From: a virus
Direction: 5' to 3' (one strand)
Virus record (IMG/VR): IMGVR_UViG_3300017960_000051
Coordinates: 1 to 27,413 of that record
Length of the DNA: 27,413 nucleotides
This document shows, piece by piece, positions 1 to 6,403 of the stretch; position 1 is the first letter of the stretch, and the number at the start of each line of letters is the position of its first letter. Both the position numbers and the translations under genes were made by a program. The notes beneath the pieces are model-generated. The model worked only from the letters and a program-made list of their open reading frames with translations. It searched no databases and was not told the DNA's origin.

Positions 1-21
1 ATATGTGAGCTACAAACCCAT

Positions 22-39
22 CAACCATTCAGCCTTAAC
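22..39 (+). repeat. Cassette junction site S0 (right half only)
   Basis: The window opens with the right half of a junction site: CAACCATT, then CAGCC (30-34) and TTAAC (35-39), followed by ATT of cassette 1. The left half would lie upstream of the window if it exists. CAACCATTCAGCC recurs exactly at 673-685 in S2, so S0 and S2 probably belong to one subfamily. This suggests that the array continues to the left. Confidence 0.6.
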
Positions 40-59
40 ATTATTTGTCAGGAGGAAAA

Positions 60-275
60 ATGGATAAAAAACATTGTTCAGGTTGTTACAATAATGATTA
101 CAATCATGGTTTAGGTGGTGCAAAAGAATGTTGGCACTTTAAAACAGCTAAAATTATATGGCGTAAAGAAGTTCATATAGATCAAGTTCCACCGTGGAAC
201 CAAAAAGCTAAGCGGCTCCCAAATTGTTATACAAAGCAAAGGTATGTTTATGTGCCACCTAATGTAACGTGCTGA
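60..275 (+). CDS. Small Cys-rich protein of cassette 1 (71 aa), function unknown
   Basis: The start is the ATG at 60, behind a strong GGAGG (51-55). A TTG at 45 is in frame but lies inside the repeat arm and is less likely. The protein has CXXC at residues 6-9, a Cys-Trp pair near residue 24 and two further Cys near the C-terminus, so metal binding is plausible. A PPW motif sits mid-protein. The pattern resembles small Cys-containing proteins often found in phage accessory regions, but I cannot name a family. The TGA stop falls within the right repeat arm of the cassette, so coding and recombination-site-like sequence abut directly. Confidence 0.75.
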   Translation: MDKKHCSGCYNNDYNHGLGGAKECWHFKTAKIIWRKEVHIDQVPPWNQKAKRLPNCYTKQRYVYVPPNVTC

Positions 276-280
276 CAAAT

Positions 281-327
281 AACAACCGGCTGGATAACTC
301 CTAAATATCAGGATTATCAGCCTTAAC
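281..327 (+). repeat. Cassette junction site S1, imperfect hairpin with one-sided bulges
   Basis: The left end is AACAACC-GGCTG (GGCTG 288-292) and the right end CAGCC (318-322)-TTAAC (323-327). The stem pairs GGCTG with CAGCC, ATAA (294-297) with TTAT (314-317) and TCCT (299-302) with AGGA (310-313). The loop is AAATATC. Two single bases, G293 and C298, bulge out, both from the 5' arm. No T-run follows, so this is not a Rho-independent terminator. Asymmetric extrahelical bases are a known hallmark of integron attC sites; the GTT core of those sites is missing here. Confidence 0.75.
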
Positions 328-356
328 ATTAAAAAACATTTACTGGAGAATCAAAT

Positions 357-548
357 ATGAAAAGAAAAATTACAGTCTATTGGATTGGTTTAGAAGATGA
401 ACCAAATAATGGCTACTATGAAAAAAATATAAAAAATGTTGCCGATGCAATTGAGGCCCTTGAATCCAATAGTGACGGCTTTGTTGTTCGCAAAAAAAAG
501 ATGCGCGAAGATGTATACAACGCCTTACCAGAGTTTATGGGATTTTAA
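357..548 (+). CDS. Small protein of cassette 2 (63 aa), function unknown
   Basis: The start is ATG 357 with GGAG at 345-348. The protein begins MKRKITVYWIG, continues with an acidic, Asn-rich stretch, then a predicted helix (residues about 26-36) and a basic RKKKMR patch. I see no Cys, signal peptide or membrane segment. I do not recognise the family. The fold could be a small alpha/beta domain, but this is a guess. The stop lies just before the right arm of its cassette. Codon use is AT-rich, like the other cassette genes and unlike the GC-rich structural genes further right. Confidence 0.7.
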   Translation: MKRKITVYWIGLEDEPNNGYYEKNIKNVADAIEALESNSDGFVVRKKKMREDVYNALPEFMGF

Positions 549-567
549 CCCGTAAATATTTTTTAAT

Positions 568-690
568 AACCGGCTGGAATCAGATTGCGGGGGTCGAGCG
601 GCCCCGAAAGACTAGGAATTTGGGATAATACTAGCAAGTTCGGGAAAAAGGTTTCTCTCCCGAAGGCCCCCGCAACCATTCAGCCTTAAC
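568..690 (+). repeat. Cassette junction site S2, long branched hairpin
   Basis: AACC-GGCTG (GGCTG 572-576) opens the site and CAGCC (681-685)-TTAAC (686-690) closes it. The stem continues as AAT (578-580) with ATT (678-680), then TTGCGGGGG (585-593) with CCCCCGCAA (667-675). G577 bulges from the 5' arm, and CAGA faces CC in an internal loop. The interior (594-666) can form further stems, for example TTCGGGA with TCCCGAA at about 637-664. Stem length differs greatly between sites while the ends are conserved, as in attC sites with variable terminal structures. Confidence 0.72.
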
Positions 691-700
691 ATTATTTACT

Positions 701-928
701 ATGAGACAAAAAGACAAATTAAGAGCAAGTTGGTCGAAACGTGAAAATGACATAATGTTATATTGGCCTCTTGGAACCTCAACAAAGAGTGATGCACATT
801 GGTTGTCGGGAATTTTTAATGATAAATTTGTGGAGGCAATCAAAAATCGTGGGTATGACATAAAAACAATGAAGTTCGAGGTATGTCCACAAAAGGGCAA
901 TCAAAGCTTTGCGTCAGAACGTAAATAA
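701..928 (+). CDS. Small protein of cassette 3 (75 aa), function unknown
   Basis: ATG 701 is only 10 bases from the end of S2, and no Shine-Dalgarno sequence is visible between them. Translation may depend on upstream ribosomes or on a leaderless-type start. The protein is basic at the N-terminus (MRQKDKLRASWSKRE), has an aromatic-rich middle containing MLYWPLG, and ends in a short Lys-rich tail. One motif, FNDKFVEAIKNRGYD, suggests a helix followed by a turn. I do not recognise the family. TAA at 926-928 lies within the right cassette arm. Confidence 0.65.
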   Translation: MRQKDKLRASWSKRENDIMLYWPLGTSTKSDAHWLSGIFNDKFVEAIKNRGYDIKTMKFEVCPQKGNQSFASERK

Positions 929-929
929 T

Positions 930-977
930 AACCGGATGGACGGCTGACCATAAAAAGCATGGCAGGTCAGCCTAAAC
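930..977 (+). repeat. Cassette junction site S3
   Basis: AACC-GGATG (934-938) replaces the usual GGCTG, and the right end is CAGCC (968-972) with TAAAC in place of TTAAC. A second GGCTGACC (942-949) pairs perfectly with GGTCAGCC (965-972), giving an alternative stem. The interior GACCATAAAAAG is shared with S5 and S4, which ties these three sites into one subfamily. Confidence 0.7.
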
Positions 978-997
978 ATTACCTGCCTGGAGGAATT

Positions 998-1342
998 ATG
1001 AACGATACAAAATTAACAGAACAAGATATTGAAAAAACCATAATTTCGTTACATACAGCTTTTCAAGATGAGTTATTCAAATGCAAAGAAGAAGATTTGG
1101 AGGGCTATTGGCATTTCAAATACAATAAAGAACAATCCCTCGTTAGCAATTTATATAATTTTTATGATCTTCTTAAGCTTTATGATGGTTTTTGCCGCAG
1201 GTGGGAAGAGCACACAAATGGCAGTTGTTGTGTAGTTGAAAGAGTAAGAGACAAATATCTCATCCCTAAAATCAAAAATTTTATAAATGCGATGGAGGCA
1301 GGTAATAACCGGCTGGGTTTAGACCATAAAAAGAATGGCTAA
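998..1342 (+). CDS. Cassette 4 protein (114 aa), function unknown; C-terminus encoded by the junction site
   Basis: I chose ATG 998 because GGAGG (989-993) lies just upstream. An in-frame ATG at 959 lies inside hairpin S3 and has no ribosome site. The protein looks mostly alpha-helical and acidic, with several aromatic residues (EGYWHFKYNKEQSL) and two to three Cys in the second half. I do not recognise a family. Unlike the other cassettes, no stop precedes the right arm, so about 15 C-terminal residues come from the repeat arm and hairpin S4 and the stop is at 1340-1342. A different junction would change the tail of this protein. Confidence 0.72.
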   Translation: MNDTKLTEQDIEKTIISLHTAFQDELFKCKEEDLEGYWHFKYNKEQSLVSNLYNFYDLLKLYDGFCRRWEEHTNGSCCVVERVRDKYLIPKIKNFINAMEAGNNRLGLDHKKNG

Positions 1343-1353
1343 TCAGCCTTAAC
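1307..1353 (+). repeat. Cassette junction site S4
   Basis: AACC-GGCTG (1311-1315) opens and CAGCC (1344-1348)-TTAAC (1349-1353) closes the site. The stem pairs GGCTG with CAGCC, then GTT with AAT by a G-T wobble and two A-T pairs, AG with CT, and CCA (1324-1326) with TGG (1336-1338). G1316, T1320 and A1323 bulge, all on the 5' arm as in S1 and S2. Confidence 0.72.
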
Positions 1354-1380
1354 ATTAAATTTCTACGAGGTATAAAGACA

Positions 1381-1512
1381 ATGAGAGAATTAACCAAAGA
1401 AGAAATGAAAGAACGTTTAGTGTCTGTCGGCTGGTTAGAATATGAAGCAGAAGAAGAAGTAGAAAGTATGTTTGCAGAAGCTGAGATAGAAGATGGATAC
1501 GATGGGCCATAA
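1381..1512 (+). CDS. Small acidic protein of cassette 5 (43 aa), function unknown
   Basis: The ORF begins at ATG 1381 with GAGG at 1367-1370 and ends with TAA at 1510-1512, three bases before the right arm. The product is short and very acidic: MRELTKEEMKERL, then VGWLEYEAEEEVESMF, ending in DGP. It is probably one or two helices. I recognise no family. Its size fits a phage accessory peptide or inhibitor of a host enzyme, but nothing in the sequence shows this. The ribosome site and the exact fit between the two arms support it as a real gene. Confidence 0.6.
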   Translation: MRELTKEEMKERLVSVGWLEYEAEEEVESMFAEAEIEDGYDGP

Positions 1513-1524
1513 CCGAAATTTAAT

Positions 1525-1572
1525 AACCGGCTGGACGGCTGACCATAAAAAGCAGGGCAGGGCAGCCTTAAC
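1525..1572 (+). repeat. Cassette junction site S5 (last copy)
   Basis: AACC-GGCTG (1529-1533) and CAGCC (1563-1567)-TTAAC (1568-1572) flank an interior nearly identical to S3 (GGACGGCTGACC, then ATAAAAAGCA). The base run after TTAAC is AATTGTAG rather than ATT plus an arm. I find no matching inverted arm further right, so this appears to be the end of the array. Confidence 0.7.
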
Positions 1573-1603
1573 AATTGTAGAAGAAACCAAAGAAAAGTAA
1601 ATC

Positions 1604-1771
1604 ATGAGATTTTATATCGAAGCACCAACAAAAATGATGGCCAAAGAATATTTAGAGAATATCATTCGGGAAGTTTATGCCACCAGCACGCCGAACGTTC
1701 ATAATATCAATGAAGATGATCGGCCTTTTGAGGCTGCTGAGGCAATTATGAACGAAATGACAGAGGAATAA
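1604..1771 (+). CDS. Small protein (55 aa) just after the cassette array, function unknown
   Basis: ATG 1604 to TAA 1769-1771. The ribosome site is weak (AAAGAAAAG upstream). The protein starts MRFYIEAPTKMMAKEY, has a likely amphipathic helix at residues 10-26, and ends with an acidic helix containing FEAAEAIMNEM. I do not recognise it. It follows the last junction site but has no right-hand arm, so it is probably a resident phage gene rather than a cassette. The next start codon follows two bases after its stop, and GAGG inside its end serves as ribosome site for that gene, so the two are probably co-translated. Confidence 0.65.
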   Translation: MRFYIEAPTKMMAKEYLENIIREVYATSTPNVHNINEDDRPFEAAEAIMNEMTEE

Positions 1772-1773
1772 AT

Positions 1774-2484
1774 ATGCTAAACCCAGTCAAAGGAAAAATG
1801 TATTCGTTCGTGACGCACACGTGGAATACCGTCAAAGGTAAATGCCCCCATAATTGCAATTATTGTTATATGAAAAAATGGGGAAAACAGCCGAAGCTCC
1901 ATTTTGATGAGTCGGAATTAAAAACCGACCTCGGAAGCGATCATTTCATATTTGTGGGATCAAGTTGCGATATGTGGGCGTGGGACATTCCTGCAGAATG
2001 GATATTAAAAACCCTCAATCATTGCTGCAAATTTGAAAGAAACAGATGGCTTTTTCAGTCAAAAAATCCAAACAGGTTTACAGATTTCTATGGGTATTAC
2101 CCCAAAATTAATGAGCTTGGCGATTCGATCATATTTGGGACCACTATCGAGACAAACAGAGAAAAATATATCAACAAAGATGCCCCGGCCATTGTTGATA
2201 GATACTGCGGAATTCATACAGTCGGGAAAGAAGACGGTTGCCGGACAATGGTTACGATAGAACCGATTATGGATTTCGATCTTAAGGAAATGGTTGAAAT
2301 AATATCCGATATAGAGCCTGAATGGGTAAATATCGGGGCAAACACCAATTACAGTGTCCAGCTTCGGGAGCCGGATCCTGGAAAAATCAGAAAATTGATA
2401 TCGGCATTAAAAGAATTAACCGAAGTAAAAATAAAAAAGAACCTTAAAAGATTGGTGGCTAAACGCGAGGATGTATATCGTTAA
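1774..2484 (+). CDS. DUF5131 (phage Gp37/Gp68) family protein, radical-SAM-like
   Basis: 236 aa. Residues 24-31 carry C-X3-C-X2-C (C24, C28, C31), the iron-sulfur motif of radical SAM enzymes, followed by YMKKWG. Other segments typical of the Gp37/Gp68 family are FVGSSCDMWAWDIP, LFQSKNPNRF, GTTIETNRE and TIEPIMDFD. Family members are common in phages and plasmids, and no reaction is firmly assigned that I know of. A 4Fe-4S cluster and SAM-dependent chemistry are inference from the motif. The gene follows the 55 aa gene with a two-base gap and uses GAGG at 1764-1767. Length is normal for the family. Confidence 0.88.
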   Translation: MLNPVKGKMYSFVTHTWNTVKGKCPHNCNYCYMKKWGKQPKLHFDESELKTDLGSDHFIFVGSSCDMWAWDIPAEWILKTLNHCCKFERNRWLFQSKNPNRFTDFYGYYPKINELGDSIIFGTTIETNREKYINKDAPAIVDRYCGIHTVGKEDGCRTMVTIEPIMDFDLKEMVEIISDIEPEWVNIGANTNYSVQLREPDPGKIRKLISALKELTEVKIKKNLKRLVAKREDVYR

Positions 2485-2496
2485 TTCTTAAATATT

Positions 2497-2658
2497 ATGG
2501 ACAAACTATTAAATATACTGCCGATCATTATCATGCTGGAGAGTTTCGCGGCTGCGGTACCGCTGCTGATCTGCCAGCGGTGGGGCAGCGGGCTGTATTG
2601 GTTTTCCGCCGGGTTGCTTAACCTTGCGGTGATCTTTTTGATCAAAAAATGGGGGTGA
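2497..2658 (+). CDS. Small two-helix membrane protein (53 aa)
   Basis: ATG 2497 to TGA 2656-2658. Two hydrophobic segments cover about residues 4-27 and 32-49, joined by a short QRWGSG turn and followed by a KKWG basic tail, so both ends probably face the cytoplasm. The shape fits a small holin-like or other phage membrane peptide, but there is no specific motif. No clear Shine-Dalgarno sequence precedes it. It lies 12 bases after the DUF5131 gene and 3 bases before the next start, so it is likely part of the same operon. Confidence 0.6.
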   Translation: MDKLLNILPIIIMLESFAAAVPLLICQRWGSGLYWFSAGLLNLAVIFLIKKWG

Positions 2659-2661
2659 AAA

Positions 2662-2874
2662 ATGGCTGCTGGCGAATTTGAAATATCATATACATTTCAA
2701 TGTAAACAGTGCGGCGCAGCATTAGAAATAGAGGAAACTTACGATAATACGATATTAATTACGCCGTGTTCGTGCCGTCCGATTAAAGACCGTGCGGAAA
2801 ATAAAGTCGAAAAAATTAGAGAAACTTTAAAAACAGCCATCGATAAAGCGGTAAATGAAATATATTTTGATTAA
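2662..2874 (+). CDS. Zinc-ribbon-like small protein (70 aa)
   Basis: ATG 2662 follows the previous stop by three bases, with GGGGGTGA as a possible ribosome site. CKQC at residues 14-17 and CSC at 36-38 suggest a zinc ribbon with a short beta-hairpin between them. The C-terminal half is a charged helix (DRAENKVEKIRETL). The role is unknown. Such proteins in phages may bind nucleic acid or partner proteins. The end of the ORF overlaps a possible upstream start (2855) of the next gene. Confidence 0.7.
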   Translation: MAAGEFEISYTFQCKQCGAALEIEETYDNTILITPCSCRPIKDRAENKVEKIRETLKTAIDKAVNEIYFD

Positions 2875-2896
2875 TGCTGTAAGAACAACATTTCGT

Positions 2897-3169
2897 ATGA
2901 AAAAATATAAATATTTAATCGTTGCGGCGCTTTTTGCGATGGCGGTGCCTCCGGTGTTCTGGTGGGGAGTAGGCCGGGGACGCGAGATCGATGCCGTGTT
3001 CGTGACCCATGGCAAAGAGCTGATCCGGCTGCAAAAAGATATCAAGGGACTGCAGTTGCATGTGGCGGAGCTGAACATTAAAAATCATCGGCTGAAAAGC
3101 CGGCTGGAGAGCGTACAAAAGGCAAACCTGGCTTACCAGGAGAAGATCAGAATAATACAGCGCAGATGA
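2897..3169 (+). CDS. Membrane-anchored coiled-coil protein (90 aa), spanin- or Rz-like shape
   Basis: I prefer ATG 2897, which puts a basic MKKYKY ahead of one hydrophobic segment (YLIVAALFAMAVPPVFWWG). An in-frame ATG at 2855 would add 14 residues and overlap the preceding gene; neither start has a good ribosome site. After the anchor comes a long periplasm-facing or cytoplasmic helix with heptad-like leucines (residues about 35-85). This topology is seen in inner-membrane spanins, but no lipoprotein partner is nested here. The stop overlaps the next start as ATGA. Function remains unproven. Confidence 0.65.
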   Translation: MKKYKYLIVAALFAMAVPPVFWWGVGRGREIDAVFVTHGKELIRLQKDIKGLQLHVAELNIKNHRLKSRLESVQKANLAYQEKIRIIQRR

Positions 3170-3828
3170 CGGAAGATATCGACATATTGATTCAGGCCCG
3201 GGACAAAGCCAGGGTAAAAGTGGAACAGGATCCCACCGCGGAAAACCTGGCAGCCCTGGAAAAGGCGTCCAAAATGCTGGCGGAGATGCAGGGGGACGGC
3301 CCCGAACCGGCGGTGAAAAACCGGCTGGAGGTGTTGAAGCACCTGCGGCGGGAAGGGTTCAAGATCGGTAAAACCAAGCTGTACAAGGATGCCGGCGACG
3401 GCTTGCTGCGGATTCAGCCGGACGGGTCGGTGCTGGAAAGGGATATTGACCGGTATGTGCGTGTGGCCGGGTTGAAAAAGCCGGCGGAGATCTCCGATAC
3501 CGAGCTGCAGCAGCTGCAGAAAAGCAAGGGCGAGATGGAGGTGGAAAAACTTCGCCAGCAGGTGTCGGATCTGAAGTTCAAGCAGGATGTGGCCCAGGGG
3601 AAGTACATCCTGCGGTCGGAGTTCGAAATGGAAATGGCCGGCCGGGCCGGCGCTCTTGATGCGGGCCTGCGCCACCGGTTCATGTCGGAGTGCCGGGATC
3701 TGACGGATGCGGTCAAGGGCGATCCGTCTCTGGTGCCGGTGCTGCAGGAGATGCTGGGGCGAATGCTGGACGAGGCGCTCAACGAGTATGCCAGCCTGGA
3801 TAACTTCCAAGTGATAATTGAGAGTTAA
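3166..3828 (+). CDS. Putative terminase small subunit (Nu1-like)
   Basis: 220 aa, ATGA overlap with the gene before. An N-terminal helical segment is followed by a region that could form a winged helix (residues about 48-95: LEVLKHLRREGFKIGKTKLYKD, an IQPDGSV turn and RYVRVAG). A charged coiled coil comes next (residues about 112-150), then a segment with QGKYILRSEF like the dimerisation part of Nu1-type proteins. Lambda Nu1 recognises cos or pac DNA and recruits the large subunit. Position just before the large terminase supports the call, although one AT-rich gene intervenes. There is no direct motif proof, so an unrelated DNA-binding protein is possible. Confidence 0.6.
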   Translation: MTEDIDILIQARDKARVKVEQDPTAENLAALEKASKMLAEMQGDGPEPAVKNRLEVLKHLRREGFKIGKTKLYKDAGDGLLRIQPDGSVLERDIDRYVRVAGLKKPAEISDTELQQLQKSKGEMEVEKLRQQVSDLKFKQDVAQGKYILRSEFEMEMAGRAGALDAGLRHRFMSECRDLTDAVKGDPSLVPVLQEMLGRMLDEALNEYASLDNFQVIIES

Positions 3829-4251: not shown

Positions 4252-6194
4252 ATTTAAATCAAACAACATTCACAATTAAATCCCCATCCTGGCTGCCGGG
4301 GATGCTGGCGGATCAGTTGCTGGAGTCCGGAAAGCTGGAGTACTTCGGGTCGTTTACCGCTGCGGAGAAAAAAGTACTTCGCAAGCGAAAGCAGATCCCG
4401 GTTTCCCGGTGGTGTGAAAAACACCGGGTGGTGACCACCGGCGGGCTGCCGGGCAGATGGAAAAACCGGGTCACGCCGTATATGGTCGGGGTGATGGATG
4501 CGTCTTTTTTCCCGTCCGTCCGGGTGATCACGGTTTGCGCAGCGCCCCAGGTGGCCAAGTCCGAGGCGGCGAATAACTGCATCGGATATGCCATCGACCG
4601 GGCGCCAGGGCCGGTTTTGTACGTCTATCCGGACGAGCAGACGGCCAGAGATAACTCCCGGGACCGGATCCGCCCCATGATTGAATCATCGGCCCGGCTC
4701 CGGGGTTATCTCACCGGCGTGGATGACGATGTGTCGTCTATGCGGATCAACCTGCAGCACATGCCGATATATATGGCCTGGGCACGATCCGCCGCGCGGA
4801 TGGCCAATAAGCCCATCCGACACCTGGTGTTTGATGAGACGGACAAATATCCGGAGACCAGCGGAAAAAAAGAGACGGATCCCATATCCCTGGGAGAAAA
4901 GCGGACCCGGACTTATCGCTGGTTTTATAAAGAGTGGAAGATCTCCAGTCCTACCATCGAGGAAGGCTTTATCTGGGTGGCTTTGACCGTGGAGTCCCAG
5001 GCTGTCTTTGATTATTATGTCCGCTGTTCCTTCTGCGACCATTTTCATCTCATGACCTTTGAGCAGATCAAGTTTCCGGAGGATGAGCGGGATCCGGAGC
5101 GAGTCGAGGGTGAAAACCTGGCCTGGTACCAGTGTCCGGAGTGCGGGGAAACCTGGGACGATGACCTGCGAAATCGGGCGGTGCAAAACGGTGACTGGAT
5201 CGAGCGGGAGTCCGGCCTGGAGTTGATGGTTCACCTGAAAAAGCACCGGCCACAAAAAATCGGTTTTCACATCCCGTCGTGGCTGTCCATTTTTGTGGGT
5301 CTGTCCGAGGTGGCGGCGGCCTTTTTGCGGGGATTAAAGGACAAGACCAAGCTCAAAGACTTTCGTAATGGCCACCAGGCGATACCCTGGCTCGACTACC
5401 CGGATGAGCGGGACGAGGACCACATCCTGGCGCTGCGGGATGAGCGCCCCGCCGGGCTGGTGCCGTCCGGCAACGTGGTGGCCGCGCTCACCGGCGCCAT
5501 TGACACCCAGGACAACGGCTTTTTTTACGAGATCCGCGCCTGGGGTTATGGCCTCACCCAGGAGTCGTGGCAGATCCGCAACGGTTTTGCCGCCAACTTT
5601 GCCCAGCTGGAAAAAATTCTGTTTGACGATGCCTACCTGGACGCGGAGGGGAAAAAATACCTGGTGCGCTTGAGCGTGATCGACTCCGGCGGTCATCGCA
5701 CCTCCGAGGTGTACGACTGGTGCCGGGTCAACCGCGGCCGGGTGTTTGCCCTCAAGGGAGTGCAGACCATGAACCAGCCGGTGGCCTGGTCCAAAATCGA
5801 CGTGTATCCGGGCACCAACAAGCCCATTGCCGGCGGGGTGATGCTGGCCCGGGTGAACACCACCTATTTCAAGAACAAGCTGGCCAACACCCTGGAGATT
5901 GCCCCGGACGACCCCGGAGCCTGGCACATGCACGCCGAAATGTCGGTGGACTGGGCCCGGCAGATGACCTCCGAGTATGTGGACGAAAAAGGGATCTGGC
6001 AGGTGCGCCAGTCCATGGCCAACCACGGCTGGGACGTGTCCGGCTACGGCCTGGCCGCCGCCGAGATCCTGGGGGTTAGATTTTGGCAGAAAAAACAGCC
6101 GAAAAAGGAAGAAGAAAAACCGGTGATACCGGCTCAAAACGAAAACTGGGTGCGAGGTGGTAAACAAGGAAGTGTTTGGATAAAAAATAAATGA
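4248..6194 (+). CDS. Terminase large subunit, GpA family
   Basis: 648 aa, as long as lambda gpA. The ATPase part has a Walker A-like AAPQVAKSEA (98-107, K104) and Walker B LVFDETD (193-199, D196-E197). Two Cys pairs, C260/C263 and C296/C299, form a likely zinc site. The nuclease part has acidic residues D419 (GAIDTQ) and D479 (VIDSGG), plus an Asp near residue 595 (HGWDVSGYG). The protein pumps DNA into the prohead and cuts concatemers. Its start overlaps the preceding stop as ATGA and its end overlaps the next gene the same way. Confidence 0.95.
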   Translation: MNLNQTTFTIKSPSWLPGMLADQLLESGKLEYFGSFTAAEKKVLRKRKQIPVSRWCEKHRVVTTGGLPGRWKNRVTPYMVGVMDASFFPSVRVITVCAAPQVAKSEAANNCIGYAIDRAPGPVLYVYPDEQTARDNSRDRIRPMIESSARLRGYLTGVDDDVSSMRINLQHMPIYMAWARSAARMANKPIRHLVFDETDKYPETSGKKETDPISLGEKRTRTYRWFYKEWKISSPTIEEGFIWVALTVESQAVFDYYVRCSFCDHFHLMTFEQIKFPEDERDPERVEGENLAWYQCPECGETWDDDLRNRAVQNGDWIERESGLELMVHLKKHRPQKIGFHIPSWLSIFVGLSEVAAAFLRGLKDKTKLKDFRNGHQAIPWLDYPDERDEDHILALRDERPAGLVPSGNVVAALTGAIDTQDNGFFYEIRAWGYGLTQESWQIRNGFAANFAQLEKILFDDAYLDAEGKKYLVRLSVIDSGGHRTSEVYDWCRVNRGRVFALKGVQTMNQPVAWSKIDVYPGTNKPIAGGVMLARVNTTYFKNKLANTLEIAPDDPGAWHMHAEMSVDWARQMTSEYVDEKGIWQVRQSMANHGWDVSGYGLAAAEILGVRFWQKKQPKKEEEKPVIPAQNENWVRGGKQGSVWIKNK

Positions 6195-6403
6195 CGACCA
6201 ATGATAAAATACTTATCGGCTGTGACGCGATAATGAATTATATCGGCATTTCCAGCCGGGTGTTGTTTAAAGAGTTTATAGCCTTAGGCATGCCGGCAAA
6301 ATTGATCAACAACCGGTGGTATGCTTATGCCGACAACCTGGATGAATATTTTAGGGTGCTGACGCGGTACAGAGAGAAAAACCCGCCGGAAGATGCGGAA
6401 TAA
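6191..6403 (+). CDS. Small helix-turn-helix-like protein (70 aa)
   Basis: The start overlaps the terminase stop (ATGA). The sequence GCDAIMNYIGISSRVLFKEF, then LGMPAKLINNRWYAYADNLDEYF resembles an excisionase or Nu1-type winged helix: helix, turn, recognition helix, then a wing ending in a Trp-Tyr strand. It may be a small DNA-binding partner of the terminase. If so, it competes with the 3166 gene for the name of small subunit. Its tight coupling to the large terminase supports a packaging role. There is no direct evidence of DNA binding. Confidence 0.65.
   Translation: MTTNDKILIGCDAIMNYIGISSRVLFKEFIALGMPAKLINNRWYAYADNLDEYFRVLTRYREKNPPEDAE

Follow-up and report, generated by a model that had tools for sequence, protein, structure and literature searches.

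The left end of the tailed-phage fragment analysed here very probably carries an integron-type cassette array, resembling a CALIN, whose sites have an altered core specificity and whose integrase is not on the recovered fragment. The window, that is, the whole stretch of 27,413 bases, spans its IMG/VR record (27,413 bases) in full, and its right part is a tailed-phage structural module with the large terminase, a lambda-family portal, an S49 protease, the tape measure and tail genes. Five complete cassettes lie at 22-1579, each with one small ORF and all ORFs running left to right, and they are bounded by six hairpin sites within the first 1.6 kb, the first of which (S0) is partial, being cut by the left contig end, past which the array continues. 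The sites end in CAGCCT[T/A]AAC at 39, 327, 690, 977, 1353 and 1572 and start with AACCGG[C/A]TGG at 284, 568, 930, 1307 and 1525, while the cassette ORFs end just before their own site or inside it. All six sites and five ORFs listed in a preliminary description of this DNA were located, but the ORF of cassette 4 (998-1342) does not simply lie between two sites, as had been stated, since it extends into its own site S4. The features are as follows:

1-40, plus strand: S0, right half of an attC-like site, CAACCATTCAGCCTTAACA|TT, resembling the right half of S2; predicted crossover 40|41 (A|TT)
41-328, plus strand: cassette 1, ORF 60-275 (71 aa), then its own site S1; arm match 11/12
277-334, plus strand: S1, R'' AAATAAC, spacer AACCG, L'' GCT(G)GATAA, L' TTATCAGC, spacer CTTAAC, R' A|TTA
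329-691, plus strand: cassette 2, ORF 357-548 (63 aa), then its own site S2; arm match 15/16
561-697, plus strand: S2, AAT / AACCG / GCT(G)GAAT ... ATTCAGC / CTTAAC / A|TT, with a long variable top
692-978, plus strand: cassette 3, ORF 701-928 (75 aa), then its own site S3; arm match 9/9
923-984, plus strand: S3, AAT / AACCG / GAT(G)GAC ... GTCAGC / CTAAAC / A|TT; L'' sequence common to site delta of the related phage L008
979-1354, plus strand: cassette 4, ORF 998-1342 (114 aa), then its own site S4; arm match 11/11
1300-1360, plus strand: S4, AAT / AACCG / GCT(G)GGTTTAG(A)CC ... / CTTAAC / A|TT
1355-1573, plus strand: cassette 5, ORF 1381-1512 (43 aa), then its own site S5; arm match 10/10
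1518-1579, plus strand: S5, the last site, right flank A|ATTG
2855-3828, plus strand: conserved phage genes, 104-aa and 220-aa TerS-like ORFs, downstream of the variable cassette region in related phages

The preliminary description had spoken of an integron-like array with a non-canonical site, and the resemblance to the attC sites of bacterial integrons (59-be) proved stronger than it stated. As in bacterial arrays, there is one ORF per cassette, the orientation is uniform and the R'' and R' arms are complementary in the circle form. The unpaired asymmetric spacers measure 5 and 6 nt (AACCG and CTTAAC), the first extrahelical base stands on the L'' arm, which is the correct side for attC, and is a G (top strand) at all six sites examined, a conserved C precedes the core, and a variable top is present. 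A second extrahelical base, an A lying 6-8 nt further in, is visible in S4 and in site alpha of L008 and is ambiguous in S1-S3 and S5. The correspondence can be read box by box, given that a bacterial site has the form GTCTAAC aagtc GCT(G)CAGCCGA ... TCGGCTGAGC cttggc G|TTATGAG and S1 the form AAATAAC aaccg GCT(G)GATAA ... TTATCAGC cttaac A|TTA. In the predicted fold of the S1 bottom strand, the R stem is 12 bp long, the internal loop is 5/4 and single bases bulge out of the L stem. Unlike bacterial attC, the window sites have an AAT/ATT core (once AAC/ATT) in place of AAC/GTT, arms of 9-16 bp against mostly 5-10, and short L stems, and a canonical model misses them; as the GTT core is absent, we term them attC-like.

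The core reads ATT in the R' of S0-S4, so that the AAC-ATT form previously given for the 3' half holds there, but S5 is followed by A|AT, so the sequence after it (A|ATTG) does not open in the way the cassettes do. In R'', sites S2-S5 carry AAT and S1 carries AAC, which makes S1 the sole window site where AAC stands opposite ATT. Integron exchange takes place at G|TT, where the first core base remains part of the upstream site and is free to differ from the cassette that comes next. In cassette 1 the lone mismatch of the 12-base arm falls on the first core base (AAC at the end, ATT at the start), which makes A|TT the natural reading and places the exchange one base to the right of TTAAC|ATT, the insertion point proposed earlier, which fits less well. 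On the sequence, therefore, the crossover is best placed at A|TT, which would be the exact counterpart of G|TT.

The arms themselves behave as had been described, since in every cassette the stretch that follows AAC and the stretch just ahead of AACC form inverted repeats that differ from the arms of the other cassettes. With a match scored +1 and a mismatch -2, cassettes 1-5 reach 9, 13, 9, 11 and 10 (over 12, 16, 9, 11 and 10 bases), the top score among the 20 wrong pairings is 7, and random ATT/AAT-anchored pairs from the window score 9 in 8e-4 of draws and 13 in 1e-5. Five window sites and one L008 site together offer 60 R-arm positions, of which 56 pair in the circle form and 34 across the linear junctions. 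For S1, S4 and S5 the circle form folds with roughly double the stability (for S1, -15.5 kcal/mol against -7.8 in linear form), and the L stems of S3 and S5 pair poorly. The arms of integron cassettes had been thought short and unlike those of the window; they are indeed somewhat shorter, but bacterial cassettes beside intI follow the same within-cassette logic, with a mean score of 6.0 and a maximum of 9 (n=22) on a scale where the window scores 8-12, indicating that the window arms obey the normal integron rule in a somewhat extended form.

The rarity of the ATT core was assessed with several searches. R1, a covariance model from 20 canonical bacterial attC sites, matched none of the window sites at E values up to 10, even with its filters switched off, bearing out the expectation that a standard attC search would miss them, and it did find attC sites in the related phages L047, L014, L032 and L006. 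The bacterial sample was taken next to integron integrase genes (NCBIfam TIGR02249) in genomes of the phylum to which a Deltaproteobacteria MAG belongs. A mechanical scan of 772 kb for AAx, 5 nt, 3 pairs, an extra base, further pairs, 5/6 nt and xTT, with x left free, returned 51 AAC/GTT sites against 7 AAT/ATT, which look like chance or AT-rich hairpins, with 1-19 for the other combinations; S1 and S2, with their 5- and 6-nt spacers and one extrahelical base, are fitted by the scan that picks up AAC/GTT sites next to bacterial intI. A single-cassette scanner, in which shuffled DNA reached 18.6 against 19.9 for S1, is too noisy alone and was used only with controls. R2, a covariance model deliberately biased towards AAT/ATT (bacterial sites with core letters changed in silico as the query, together with S1-S4 and one L008 site), recovered 105 distinct sites from 990 genomes of three phyla, of which 100 were AAC/GTT, 2 AAC/ATT, 3 others and 0 AAT/ATT, in a sample that may leave out the relevant bacterial integrons. 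Run on 80 IMG/VR contigs that carry an IntI-like gene, the same model returned 38 distinct sites, every one of them AAC/GTT. Seven of the eight complete sites of two phages, the window and L008, are AAT/ATT (Fisher p ~2e-10, a value to be taken as descriptive since the sites of one array do not vary independently and S1-S4 were in the R2 training set). Exact-site patterns run against IMG/VR and GTDB (one genome per species) gave 0 matches in their first form and 13 and 19 stretches when relaxed, apparently coding DNA and none with an AATAACC context. As a separate observation, IMG/VR holds at least 514 contigs with an IntI relative, and many of the 80 fetched (L244-L323), which may be phage or host DNA, carry canonical attC arrays.

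These counts bear on the reading in which the array began as canonical G|TT cassettes that, once in the phage, became non-functional and drifted to A|TT. Isolated G-to-A changes do occur in bacterial arrays, given the 2 AAC/ATT sites among the 105 found by the model and two more in the mechanical scan, and S1, being AAC/ATT, together with the weak L stems of S3 and S5, would agree with such decay. We nevertheless judge it improbable, because A occupies that base in 8 of 8 complete sites of two phages despite different L boxes (GCT/GAT in the window; GTT, GAT and GCT in L008), the partner base has changed as well (AAT) in 7 of the 8, the arms are intact and longer than bacterial ones, and decay would be expected to alter other positions too.

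Related phages place the array in a wider context. A TerL search retrieved four contigs (L005-L008) at 84-100% identity, and the TerS-like protein search gave the same four; L005 is too short to cover the cassette region. Four phages, the window, L006, L007 and L008, have such sites upstream of the same genes, at about 80-85% in TerS/TerL. L006 (one site, at 142-270) and L007 (one cassette with matching arms) have canonical G|TT cores, and the window and L008 have A|TT. The L008 sites read GTT(G)AAGTAG(A)TGCG, GAT(G)CACAG and GCT(G)GAC, with arms of 9/10, 9/9 and 8/8, and the differences among these three L boxes leave a single mutated founder site as no simple explanation. A stretch like AATAANCNGCTGGACG(G)CTGACC is common to L008 delta and to S3 and S5, evidence of kinship between some of the A|TT sites in the two phages; the corresponding site-family pattern matched L008 and two chance stretches only. 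No cassette protein common to the related phages was found, nor any pair of phages differing by exactly one cassette, so that the precise gain or loss which the preliminary description had looked for was not observed. Neither was the same gene order in all relatives, which would have spoken against cassette exchange: the relatives carry different cassettes at the same place, which fits turnover at a fixed place. No relative of the 104-aa protein was detected in L006. Between the array and the packaging genes, the window has a DUF5131/radical-SAM-like ORF (1774-2484) that was not seen at the corresponding position in L007 or L008.

Canonical G|TT attC-like sites were also seen on the minus strands of L047 (9549-9633, 12511-12599 and 12823-12912, the last being the weakest canonical site and below significance), L014 (8299-8355 and 9011-9067) and L032 (4814-4872). 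As these phages have related TerL proteins, cassette carriage may recur in this phage group.

An integrase, attI or a cassette promoter was not identified on the 27.4-kb fragment, whose array runs off the contig end, and the tyrosine recombinase that the preliminary description proposed to find near such arrays was seen neither there nor in the three nearest array-bearing relatives, all of them fragments. The unseen IntI, the different core triplet and the failure of the canonical attC model are what a different hairpin-guided system would predict, such as an HUH/IS200-like enzyme or a non-IntI phage recombinase that had arrived by convergence at circular cassettes with palindromic ends. Such a system appears very unlikely to us, as the spacer lengths, the L''-side extrahelical base, the C before the core and the ORF orientation are those of attC, the window sites align with bacterial attC over R'', spacer and L'', and close relatives have canonical G|TT sites at the same place. 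Xer-dependent dif modules (p-dif modules) can be dismissed almost entirely. We take TTAACATTA to be loosely like the reverse complement of a XerD half-site, which counts for them; against them, the window contains 0 XerC-6-XerD sites at up to 3 mismatches and the arms vary by cassette. Besides, p-dif modules alternate in direction, and the window sites all point the same way.

Phage CALINs, attC-type arrays in phage genomes that lack an integrase, have been described, and IntI1 recombined 5 of 6 tested sites with 5'-G|TTRRRY junctions (Qi et al. 2023, PMC9892861), unlike the A|TT cores of the window. AAC/GTT is regarded as the only conserved sequence of attC (PMC2727003) and as the universal crossover triplet, whose bottom-strand AAC is important for integron integrase binding and strand transfer; a C-to-A change in the triplet lowered attI recombination and abolished it in one configuration (PMC4792948). 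From the attG and secondary sites (GNT/GWT) it is known that IntI accepts non-classical targets (PMC10127599; PMC4618277; Loot et al. 2024, in the account given by PMC12901181), but these sites keep the first G and relax the second base (PMC10127599), whereas in the window it is the first base that has changed. No report of ATT-core arrays was found in the literature searched, subscription papers and preprints being outside its reach. What is new here is the ATT core, phage-borne attC arrays having already been published (PMC9892861).

In the mechanism that we propose, each cassette comprises one small ORF and its own attC-like site, one strand of which would fold in the cell into a hairpin made up of an R stem, an unpaired spacer, an L stem whose L'' arm bears an extrahelical base, and a variable top. 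An IntI-type tyrosine recombinase acting in trans, from the host or from the missing part of the phage, would cut the bottom strand at 5'-AA|T-3' (top strand A|TT), and circular cassettes would be inserted or excised, the core base pair having presumably changed from the near-universal C-G (AAC/GTT) to T-A (AAT/ATT). The array may still recombine at present. The best TerL matches fall in one sampled bacterial phylum (~48% identical over most of the protein), and IntI genes occur in 121 of 345 genomes of the phylum of the Deltaproteobacteria MAG, making a helper enzyme plausible if the host is of that kind.

ATT cores with a matching partner base would show that the last conserved sequence element of these sites is replaceable, and the role of the first core base becomes directly testable. 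More speculatively, and with the balance of our judgment against it, the A|TT sites may constitute a separate specificity, in which an IntI-type lineage, perhaps on the unseen part of the phage, exchanges cassettes mainly among A|TT sites; if so, phages would keep a private cassette pool not freely mixing with the G|TT integrons of the host, because the core triplet supplies microhomology for strand transfer. ATT cores also mean that attC searches built on canonical sites undercount cassette arrays, perhaps above all in phages. In one phage group, the region upstream of the TerS-like gene looks like a hot spot for cassettes.

Regarding the cargo, the five cassette proteins (43-114 aa) matched no curated family above noise in Pfam, NCBIfam or PADLOC, the whole array and its proteins had no match among 50,697 phage records, and Rfam gave no match in window positions 1-2600. 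The cassettes of L008, searched in IMG/VR, matched L008 itself only. The sole IMG/VR match of the window's cassette proteins is a relative of the cassette-1 protein, 55% identical, in the phage contig L196. There (5992-6237 of a 67-kb contig) it is an ordinary gene with no such sites around it, so the cargo of the cassettes seems to include plain phage genes. Finally, three different ORFs of L008 (1-201, 243-491 and 1156-1413) have Cys-rich tails (DAKSRCNC..., DAESRCPEC... and DAQDATQLGGCEIC...) that overlap the hairpin regions, as if encoded by the sites.
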